NCBI GenBank assembly: GCA_013152575.1
Contig: JAADGB010000058.1
Location: 1 to 34,484, forward strand
Length of the DNA: 34,484 nt
From: Thermoproteota archaeon
Lineage (GTDB): Archaea > Thermoproteota > Thermoprotei_A > Sulfolobales > Acidilobaceae
Direction of reading: 5' to 3'
A program made the translations under genes and the position numbers. Below, in pieces: positions 8,325 through 25,306 of the stretch (position 1 is the first letter of the stretch; each line of letters opens with the position of its first letter). The notes below the pieces were generated by a model. The model did no database searches and was not told where the DNA came from. It saw only the letters and a list, made by a program, of their open reading frames with translations.

Positions 8325-8735
8325 ATGGTATTGGAGAGAATTATGGAGCGGATAATCGAGGAAGCGGGAGTAGGCATAATAAAGCCGGAGACCAGAAGGA
8401 AGATCATTGAAATACTGACGAGCGAGTTAAGCTATAGACAGGTAGCCAGGAGCCTAGGCGTGACTGCGGCAGCGATTCACAAGTACATCACGGGCAAATC
8501 AACTCCTAGAGACGAGGTAGTCAAGAGAGCAATCGATCTTGCAGCAGAACTCGGTCTAACCGAGGTAGGCGACCTAATCTTAGAAGACATTGCTACAGAG
8601 CTAGAAGCCCTGCTGAAAACGTTGGCTGAAAAGGATCTAGCCTCAGCCTCACACGTTTCAAAACTCTCAAGTATAGTCGGCAGGGCTAAACTGGTATTAG
8701 CAGCTGGCCTCTCAGGAAACAAGAAGCGAATGTAG
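8325..8735 (+). CDS. Helix-turn-helix (Cro/XRE-like) protein
   Basis: SYRQVARSLGVTAAAIHKYITGKSTPRDEVVKRAIDLA: HTH pattern. Confidence 0.75.
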   Translation: MVLERIMERIIEEAGVGIIKPETRRKIIEILTSELSYRQVARSLGVTAAAIHKYITGKSTPRDEVVKRAIDLAAELGLTEVGDLILEDIATELEALLKTLAEKDLASASHVSKLSSIVGRAKLVLAAGLSGNKKRM

Positions 8736-8742
8736 TTCTCTT

Positions 8743-9132
8743 CTACGAGATTTTCACCACGTTCCAGTACTCGCCAGCCTCAATTAGCCACGCCGCCATT
8801 AATCTGGCCACGAATCTCCTAGCATCTCCTCTCGAGATATTGTATCCGAGTCTCGAGGCCGCCTTGTAGGCTATATCCTCATCTATCCTGTCGATAAAGA
8901 TGTCTGTTAGTTCCTCGAGTAGATCCCATAGGTTTATTCTCCTTTTACTGGATACGATTTCCTTAAGTCTAGTATAGTCTTCGTCTTTTAACATGGCCTT
9001 ATCCACTAGGTCTTCTCGCCCCTCTTCTCTTGCAACCCGCCAATAAGTGAAGAGTAAATCATAGTTATCCACAACCTTGCCTGACGCGAATGGAGGCGTC
9101 TTCTTATTCTCGGGTTTCTCCACGAGATGCAC
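8743..9132 (-). CDS. Conserved hypothetical protein, helical, 129 aa
   Basis: Clean ORF filling the gap, divergent from the HARP gene; no family recognised. Confidence 0.65.
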   Translation of the reverse strand: MHLVEKPENKKTPPFASGKVVDNYDLLFTYWRVAREEGREDLVDKAMLKDEDYTRLKEIVSSKRRINLWDLLEELTDIFIDRIDEDIAYKAASRLGYNISRGDARRFVARLMAAWLIEAGEYWNVVKIS

Positions 9133-9198: not shown

Positions 9199-9840
9199 TT
9201 GGACATCTTCGTGCTCGACACGACTAGCGTGACAGAGACAAGGCTTAGATCAACGCTAGAAGAGGAGAGCTTAGAGGGAGTAGTGTCTAAGATAGCTGGG
9301 TTGATTAGAGAGGCTAGAATAAAGTTGAAGGCAAGATTCTACATGACCCCGTCAACCTGGAGCGAGCTCCGGAGGATACTTATTGGTAACTCTGTCAGCC
9401 TCGAGGTCATCCAGGAATTAGCCGCTTGGATTACTGTTAAGGCACCAGACAAGCTTTCACTCCAAATCCCGGCCAGCGTCTTCTCCGAGTATGTAGCTGA
9501 CATAAGGAGGAGGCTCTTCAAGGGATTACGAGTTGCTGAAACGGCTGTACGTAGGGTTGCAAAGGAGTGCCCGGACTCTAGCGATGGATGCATTGGTGAG
9601 ACGATTAGAGATCTCAGAGATAAGTATAGGGAGGCTACCCGTAAAGGTCTTGTCGATAGCGTAGAGGACTTGGACACTATCCTTCTCGCCATGGAGTTAA
9701 AGGGTATAGTAGTGACTAGCGACGCAGGGATTAGGAGGCTGGGAGAACAGTTAGGAATAATCGTTGTAGACCCGGTTGATTTCGTCAACATGCTTAAGAG
9801 AATGATATCATCCATGGACTCTTCCTTCGAATCAAGTTAG
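9199..9840 (+). CDS. HARP-family PIN-domain protein ('RNA ligase partner'; RNA-free RNase P homologue)
   Basis: N-terminal FVLDTTSVTE, FYMTPSTWSELRRIL, C-terminal IRDLRDKYREATRKGLVDSVEDLDTILLAMELKGIVVTSDAGIRRLGEQLGI, consistent with the HARP/PIN signature; TTG start with GAGGTG upstream. Confidence 0.85.
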   Translation: MDIFVLDTTSVTETRLRSTLEEESLEGVVSKIAGLIREARIKLKARFYMTPSTWSELRRILIGNSVSLEVIQELAAWITVKAPDKLSLQIPASVFSEYVADIRRRLFKGLRVAETAVRRVAKECPDSSDGCIGETIRDLRDKYREATRKGLVDSVEDLDTILLAMELKGIVVTSDAGIRRLGEQLGIIVVDPVDFVNMLKRMISSMDSSFESS

Positions 9841-9896: not shown

Positions 9897-10002
9897 GCCG
9901 CCGTAGCTCAGCGGTAGAGCGCCGGCCTCGTAACGGTAAATCGTTGATCCGAGGTCGCGGGAGAGCCGGTGGTCGCGGGTTCGAATCCCGCCGGCGGCTC
10001 CA
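9897..10002 (+). tRNA. tRNA-Thr (anticodon CGT) with an intron in the anticodon loop, CCA encoded
   Basis: Acceptor GCCGCCG/CGGCGGC, D arm GCTC/GAGC, anticodon stem CCGGC/GCCGG, mature loop CTCGTA|A, T arm GCGGGTTCGAATCCCGC, 3' TCCA. Confidence 0.92.
9933..9963 (+). other. Predicted 31-nt archaeal tRNA intron (between positions 37 and 38)
   Basis: Central BHB helix CTCG/CGGG with 3-nt bulges TA|A and AG|A beside the anticodon stem; exact splice sites inferred by hand. Confidence 0.78.
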
Positions 10003-22479: not shown

Positions 22480-23199
22480 ATGTATGCGGGCTCTGGTAAC
22501 ATCAGCAGAGAAGTAGTGATTGAGCACTTAGTAAACATAGCCCGCGAGCTGGAGTCAATAATAGTGGCTATAAACAACACCTTTGACTCCAGCTCGCTGC
22601 CCCGCGCCGAGGTAGTCGATAAACTCTTCCGCCAAGACCTGGTAATGTCGAAGGATAGGATAGAGAAGAGCATAGCTCAACTCCTACTCTACATAGCCTC
22701 TGGTAGGATAGAATTAGTCGATTCAAAGGAGCTAATCCTGAGGGTGACAGAGGGTTACAGGGACATTGTAACCAAGCTCGAGGCATTCATTCACAGGATA
22801 AAGCTGGCTAAGAGGGCTGGAATAGAGTTCGACGATAAGATATTCAAGAAGATGAAGGAGATGCTGAATCACATAGTTGAGGCAAGCGGCCACATAACAA
22901 CTCTAGCGAGGCTATCTGGAAGAGCACTGGGCAACCATGACGTTGCAAGAATGATGGAGACTAGGAACGATAAGGTCCAAGAGATCGAGAGGTTAGTAGA
23001 CGACCTATACAGGGAAGTACTCGACACACTAATCGACACGGCTAACGACTTCAAGACCTACATACTAATCAGGGATGCAATAAGCACGTTAGAAGATACC
23101 ATGGACCTGCTATCCAAGCTATCACTAAACTACTTCATACTGGGAGTTGGCATGGCAACCAGCGCCGCTGGAGGCGGCGGTACAGCCTATGAAATGTAA
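22480..23199 (+). CDS. PhoU-like / DUF47 family protein
   Basis: All-helical 239 aa; RNDKVQEIERLVDDLYREVLDTLID...IRDAISTLEDTMDLLSKL, resembling the conserved C-terminal E/D motif of PhoU-like proteins. Confidence 0.65.
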   Translation: MYAGSGNISREVVIEHLVNIARELESIIVAINNTFDSSSLPRAEVVDKLFRQDLVMSKDRIEKSIAQLLLYIASGRIELVDSKELILRVTEGYRDIVTKLEAFIHRIKLAKRAGIEFDDKIFKKMKEMLNHIVEASGHITTLARLSGRALGNHDVARMMETRNDKVQEIERLVDDLYREVLDTLIDTANDFKTYILIRDAISTLEDTMDLLSKLSLNYFILGVGMATSAAGGGGTAYEM

Positions 23200-23740
23200 G
23201 GCTAAGGCGCGGCTCTACGGGACAACGGTAGTAGTCGAATCTATAGACGATTCTAGATGCCTCTACCAACAAGGATTCTACGGTCATCCTCTAGGCGTGG
23301 AGAAGCCTAAAGACGCCTCCTTCAACTCGCAACTACGACTTTCGCCTACTGAAGCACTCTACCTCCTCGAGCAGGGAGTAATTACTGTGGTGGATGAGGA
23401 AGGTAATCCAGTCGAGTTCAAAGAACTATGGACTAGGCTAAGCAGCCAATACAAGGACCTTAAAGTAGAGTATCCCGTATACAAGGCTCTTAGACAGTCC
23501 GGCTTAGTGGTTAGGAGCGGCCTCAAGTTCGGAGCCGACTTCACCGTTTATAGGCTGGGGCCGGGGCTGGAGCATGCCCCCTACATTGTCCACGTAGTTG
23601 CCTATGACGAGGAGTTGGAGCCCACCGATATAGTTAGGGCTGGTAGGCTGAGCCATAGTGTTAGGAAAGCATTTATTCTTGCATCCGTAGAGCCTAATGG
23701 GAATCCTAGTTACTTAATCTTTAAATGGCTCTTACCATGA
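23189..23740 (+). CDS. endA: tRNA-splicing endonuclease catalytic subunit (EndA)
   Basis: YKALRQSGLVVRSGLKFGADFTVYRLGPGLEHAPYIVHV...RAGRLSHSVRKAFILA; candidate catalytic Tyr (FTVY), His (LEHAP) and Lys (SVRK) present; start re-assigned to ATG 23189. Confidence 0.93.
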   Translation: MKCKAKARLYGTTVVVESIDDSRCLYQQGFYGHPLGVEKPKDASFNSQLRLSPTEALYLLEQGVITVVDEEGNPVEFKELWTRLSSQYKDLKVEYPVYKALRQSGLVVRSGLKFGADFTVYRLGPGLEHAPYIVHVVAYDEELEPTDIVRAGRLSHSVRKAFILASVEPNGNPSYLIFKWLLP

Positions 23741-24171: not shown

Positions 24172-24761
24172 ACTCCACTCCATCTCTTGTAAAGACTATT
24201 CTCGATACCCAATGCATCCAATACCTTACCCGCTAAGAACCTTGTAATATCGTCAATTGTCTTCGGCTTATGGTAGTAGGCTACACATAACGGAACAATT
24301 ATGGCACCCGCTTTTGCTAGTTTCACGAGGTTCTCCAACTCGATAACGCCCATTGGAGTCTCTCTGGGTGCGACTACTAGCCTACGTCCTAGCCTTAGAA
24401 TGGATAATGCAGCCCTCACTACCAGGTTATCAGAGTATCCGCCTGCTATACCTGCTACGGTCTTCATACTAGCCGGTACTACTGCCATGGCGTCGGGCTG
24501 GTTGCTACTGCTAGCGAGTGGCGAAGAGAAGTCGTCATCGCTATACACTGGCCCGAACTCGCTAAGCCGTCTCCTAAGCTCTTCGGCCTCTATTCCCTCC
24601 TCGTATCTGGCAACCGCGTAGGCTCCTCTTGACACGATAATTCCCTTTATTTCAACGCCAGCTCCACTCAGCGCCCTCACTACCTCTACTCCTATTCTAA
24701 CCCCTGATGCTCCTGTTATTGCGATTGCAACACTATTCACTCCTCGAGGATCCCTCGGCAT
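24168..24761 (-). CDS. ubiX: Flavin prenyltransferase UbiX/Pad1
   Basis: [67 protein letters not shown]. Confidence 0.95.
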
Positions 24762-25306
24762 TCTTCTCCAGCTCCCAGAGCCTCTTCTACACCCTTAACC
24801 ATATCGTTAAAGGCCTTAGATCCATATGCAATGAAGTATACACGTGACAGACTCCCTGGCTTGTGGCTGGCAACCACTCGGGCCATTTCGCGGGCAACGT
24901 CCTCGACTGAGAGGCCTCCGACACCCGCGCCCATGGCTGGTAGAGCTATTGATTCTATCCCGAGTCTCTCCGCCTCTTCCAGTGAGGCTCTGGTAGCCTT
25001 CACCGCGTTCTCAAGCGGGATCCTCATGGCAGGCCTCTCCATTGTAGGGGCGTGTATAACGTACTTGGCTGGTAGCCTGCCAGCTCCAGTTGCTATAGCT
25101 TTACCCACTGGTACTGGTGCATGCTTCACGGCCTCCTCTTCGATCTCCTTGCCTCCAGCTTTCTTGATAGCGCCTGCTACTCCTCCACCCATTATCAGTA
25201 GGCTATTGGCGGCGTTCACGATAGCATCGACCTTAGCCTTTGTTATATCACCCTCTTCGACGATAAGGGTCATACCGTTATCCAGCCTCCAACACATGGC
25301 CATCAC
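24737..25306 (-). CDS. Macro-domain protein (ADP-ribose-binding/processing)
   Basis: [64 protein letters not shown]. Confidence 0.95.

Follow-up and report, generated by a model that had tools for sequence, protein, structure and literature searches.

The locus studied here raises the question of what HARP, the homologue of the protein-only RNase P of Aquifex, does in a heat-loving crenarchaeon, a matter that bears on the reason for which a second RNase P, made of protein alone, is retained in many archaea. The gene lies in the window, that is, the whole stretch of 34,484 nucleotides that was analysed. A crenarchaeal setting had been supposed for it in an earlier note based on the sequence alone, and the closest named records are indeed MAGs labelled Thermodiscus sp. 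and Acidilobaceae.

Identity and active site of the window HARP

9199-9840, + strand: HARP (homologue of Aquifex RNase P; PIN_5, TIGR03875), 213 aa, TTG start, identified by profiles, fold and residues
9186-9191, + strand: Shine-Dalgarno-like GAGGTG, 7 nt before the HARP TTG, read from the sequence

The window gene is a genuine, correctly named HARP. In the HMM search proposed in the earlier note, HARP profiles came first: the protein matched Pfam PF08745 (PIN_5) over its full length at 230.5 bits (E 1.7e-68; curated cut-off 27 bits), and NCBIfam TIGR03875, 'RNA ligase partner protein', also over its full length, at 225 bits (E 6.3e-67; cut-off 95.3 bits). Its sequence relatives in the PDB were all RNA-free RNase P, with the Aquifex HARP entries 7f3e and 8kd9 matching at E about 1e-33. 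The fold gave the same answer. A monomer model predicted by AlphaFold (AF2; pLDDT 91) has the PIN domain and protruding spike helices of a HARP, and the best 34 PDB matches to this model were all HARPs, among them those of Aquifex and Hydrogenobacter in complex with pre-tRNA, while VapC-type PIN proteins came far behind, beginning at E about 4e-4 to 4e-3. The best-scoring profile was thus not that of VapC or another PIN family, an outcome that would have spoken against the assignment, and the identity of a VapC toxin is ruled out by both the profile and the fold matches. The start context TTG-GA is shared by most HARP orthologues of the same family.

In the Aquifex enzyme, Aq880, the residues D7, D138, D142 and D161, and R125 and R129 of the spike helix, were reported to be essential (PMC8266387). 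Alignment places the aspartates D7, D138, D142 and D160 of Aq880 (the last is D161 in the numbering of that paper and residue 160 of the 8kd9 sequence) at D7, D153, D157 and D175 of the window HARP, and the two arginines at R140 and R144. Both arginines are invariant in 29 sequences, and Aquifex and 27 relatives from the order keep all of these residues, D7 being the exception in two sequences with truncated start calls. None of the active-site acidic residues is missing, as might have been found in a misassigned gene. The window HARP is probably catalytically competent.

RNA-based RNase P and the neighbourhood of the gene

The earlier note had expected HARP to occur alongside an RNA-based RNase P, and the genome search that it proposed bore this out. 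The window genome, a 980-kb MAG that is 65% complete, contains a full-length archaeal RNase P RNA (RF00373, 175 bits; gathering score 84) and encodes Rpp29; thus, HARP adds to the RNA-based enzyme and does not replace it, as was described for archaea generally (PMC6380272, PMC10941002). Rpp30 was not detected by the Pfam model, which is weak in this group, in this 65% complete genome; in the same-genus genome G003 (genome, genus and family labels, G, g and f, are codes of this analysis) it was found below the curated cut-off. RNase P RNA is present in 44 of 46 good relatives. The idea that HARP is the sole RNase P of the organism, as in Aquifex, might draw on the undetected Rpp30 of an incomplete genome, but the RNase P RNA and Rpp29 of the window genome and the Rpp30 of G003 make it exceedingly improbable, and at 175 bits for RF00373 we rejected a HARP-only organism of the Aquifex type, in which that RNA should be absent. 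The housekeeping RNase P of the cell is the RNA-based enzyme, not HARP.

The surroundings of HARP contain the following features.

8325-8735, + strand: helix-turn-helix protein, a conserved upstream neighbour of HARP (context only)
8743-9132, - strand: 129-aa all-helical protein, divergent from HARP, widespread in the order and not HARP-specific
9897-10002, + strand: tRNA-Thr(CGT), exons 9897-9932 and 9964-9999, CCA encoded at 10000-10002; RF00005 at 64.6 bits, exon-joined fold
9933-9963, + strand: 31-nt intron of tRNA-Thr at position 37/38, from sequence and fold; position shared with the HARP-adjacent tRNA in relatives

Both neighbours mentioned in the earlier note proved to be real. The tRNA gene just downstream, matched by Rfam at 9897-9999, is a tRNA-Thr(CGT) whose joined exons give a 75-nt tRNA and which starts 56 nt past the HARP stop. 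ARAGORN at default settings missed it because of the 31-nt intron at position 37/38. When introns were allowed, the same program called tRNA-Ser(CGA/AGA) downstream of HARP in relatives; we rejected these calls, as their introns were misplaced and all the sequences were tRNA-Thr-like, with no long variable arm. The tRNA-splicing endonuclease EndA (PF01974, PF02778), which would be expected to excise the intron of tRNA-Thr, is encoded in the window at 23147-23740 (+), and a macro-domain protein at 24737-25306 (-).

Of 60 relatives, 45 have a homologue of the divergent open reading frame, whether or not they carry HARP. Its product had no Pfam match and, as an AF2 model of pLDDT 90, no PDB fold match. 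In the order this protein often adjoins tRNA-Thr(CGT). Its wide occurrence in HARP-less genomes means that it is not an antitoxin of HARP, and it was ruled out as a HARP partner on the same ground.

One could imagine that HARP is coupled to tRNA-Thr(CGT), for instance by co-transcription, and releases or regulates that tRNA. Indeed, tRNA-Thr(CGT) follows HARP at 22-255 nt in 15 genomes from six genera of the family, in 14 of which a divergent protein of about 130 aa precedes HARP. However, the divergent protein and tRNA-Thr adjoin each other directly, with no HARP between them, in G005, G016, G024 and G032, and in other families HARP is located elsewhere. It follows that either HARP entered that junction or the junction lost it, and the adjacency of the gene says little about its function. 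The adjacency of HARP to both neighbours looks positional, and a functional coupling to the tRNA is very improbable.

Joint gain and loss of HARP and the RNA ligase Rnl3

The earlier note was right about the identity and context of HARP but overlooked its near-perfect companion, the RNA ligase Rnl3 (TIGR01209). In the window genome Rnl3 is encoded on a contig other than that of HARP (C2:7-780), where it is cut by the contig end and covers profile positions 113-370 only. A link between HARP and Rnl3 was published in 2025 on the basis of genome mining (Seshadri and Gopalan; PMC12153264). We surveyed 214 genomes of the order, many of them MAGs, and counted absences in the 118 good ones (completeness of 90% or more, contamination of 5% or less). 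HARP was present in 36 and Rnl3 in 35 of these: both genes occurred in 35 genomes, HARP alone in one (G083, 93% complete, in about 180 contigs), Rnl3 alone in none, and neither in 82. Fisher's test gives 3e-29 for this co-occurrence, a value uncorrected for kinship.

Kinship was controlled on an EF-2 tree of 100 genomes, built from this one marker gene by a quick method, on which 11 changes of state were counted for HARP and 12 for Rnl3. Among nine independent supported pairs differing in HARP, Rnl3 was concordant in 8.9 on average and opposed in none (sign test p=0.004). When positives were restricted to genomes with linked genes, six of six pairs were concordant (p 0.03); with unlinked genes only, 4.9 of 5 pairs were concordant on average, p being 0.06, where five pairs cannot reach 0.05. 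The contrast also appears between sisters within a genus, of which G019 has both genes and G007 neither.

A particular case is genus g13 (G016, G024, G032), in which HARP and Rnl3 lie side by side as a cassette, and the junction between the divergent protein and tRNA-Thr contains no HARP. This arrangement suggests a separate acquisition of the pair. In the HARP tree and in the Rnl3 tree alike, the g13 sequences fall outside the clade of other sequences of the same family, nearest to family f7, the exact placement beside f7 having moderate support. Thus, g13 appears, from its gene order and these trees, to have acquired HARP and Rnl3 together.

Among the neighbours of HARP and Rnl3, no third partner recurred across families. 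The upstream neighbours of Rnl3 that are conserved in the family of the window genome resemble, in their N-terminal sequence, citrate synthase and SufB/SufD. In G040, the tRNA-Thr(CGT) anticodon-stem pattern was matched at C1:1285647-1285658 (+); this candidate tRNA is divergent from Rnl3 and about 130 nt away from its 5' end.

The correlated gain and loss of HARP and Rnl3 points to a task in RNA processing that the two share, not to the everyday trimming of tRNAs. A serious rival is that HARP serves as a stress backup for tRNA 5' processing, redundant with the RNA-based RNase P, while the same harsh environments account for the retention of Rnl3, with no direct cooperation between the two. 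All three archaeal HARPs assayed showed some pre-tRNA cleaving activity (PMC10941002), and the intact catalytic and tRNA-binding residues of the window HARP and the presence of the RNP enzyme in the same genome would agree with such a role. A backup function alone, however, leaves unexplained why Rnl3 is gained and lost in concert with HARP in about nine independent places, unlinked genes included, and why the two seem to have moved jointly into g13; moreover, both genes are missing from about 70% of the order's good genomes. We regard this explanation as rather unlikely, with a real chance of being correct.

Far less probable is a toxin-antitoxin-like or damage-and-repair pair made up of HARP and Rnl3, in which HARP would be the nuclease. 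PIN_5 has been assigned to the VapC group, and such a hypothesis was discussed in PMC12153264, where, on the other hand, the Rnl3 knock-out was reported to be viable. The two genes are unlinked in the family of the window genome, and the best fold matches are all HARPs, ahead of any VapC-type PIN protein (E values above).

Proposed role and comparison with known HARPs

The best-supported explanation, to which we give somewhat better than an even chance, is that HARP acts as an accessory endonuclease which, together with the ATP-dependent Rnl3, serves a pathway that cleaves and ligates RNA; an accessory role agrees with archaeal HARP knock-outs, which had no growth phenotype (PMC10941002). It builds on the family membership, the intact active site, the RNP RNase P components found in the same genome and the correlated gain and loss with Rnl3; the oligomer, the activity, the substrate and the direct cooperation with Rnl3 are what we infer. 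Members of the HARP family form homo-oligomers of up to a dodecamer, the tetramer being the minimal active unit. The window protein, as a PIN-fold, metal-dependent endoribonuclease, should oligomerise too; its spike helix would grip tRNA-like RNAs, and the cut would fall 5' of the acceptor stem and leave a 5' phosphate. HARP may in this way generate 5'-phosphate ends on certain precursors, either tRNA-like RNAs or box C/D sRNAs, the processing of the latter being one proposal made for HARP-Rnl3 (PMC12153264), and Rnl3 could then seal or circularise the RNAs cut by HARP.

A stronger version, which we hold more tentatively and at somewhat less than even chance, would make HARP and Rnl3 two halves of one cleavage-ligation module that is gained, lost and transferred as a whole in hyperthermophilic crenarchaea, its substrates being RNAs that are circularised or re-joined, not pre-tRNA leaders. 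Co-occurrence is no proof of cooperation, and a shared third factor could keep both genes. The Rnl3 knock-out of Thermococcus kodakarensis had no growth defect (PMC12153264), so that the HARP-Rnl3 pathway may be dispensable.

What is new here is a phylogenetically controlled test of the HARP-Rnl3 link in a crenarchaeal order; the window HARP adds to the known family, and the test strengthens the published link. The order amounts to a natural experiment, in which the presence of HARP flips about eleven times, Rnl3 follows and the RNA-based enzyme stays nearly constant, and it supplies closely matched species pairs for probing the function of both proteins.

Compared with Aq880 of Aquifex aeolicus (7f3e, 8kd9), the window HARP is about 35% identical over its full length and has the same fold (TM-score 0.92 by target length to 8kd9 chain D), but, at 213 versus about 190 aa, it extends further at the C-terminus and contains several short insertions. 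Aquifex has no RNA-based RNase P, whereas the window genome has components of that enzyme. In this respect it resembles Haloferax, Methanosarcina and Thermococcus (PDB 7e8j), in which HARP and the RNP enzyme are also co-encoded; these studied archaeal HARPs are euryarchaeal, however, while that of the window belongs to a crenarchaeal branch. With regard to the association reported in PMC12153264, the window genome is alike in possessing Rnl3, and its order shows near-perfect co-occurrence; it differs in that the two genes are unlinked, and the present test of the association used independent pairs on a phylogeny.
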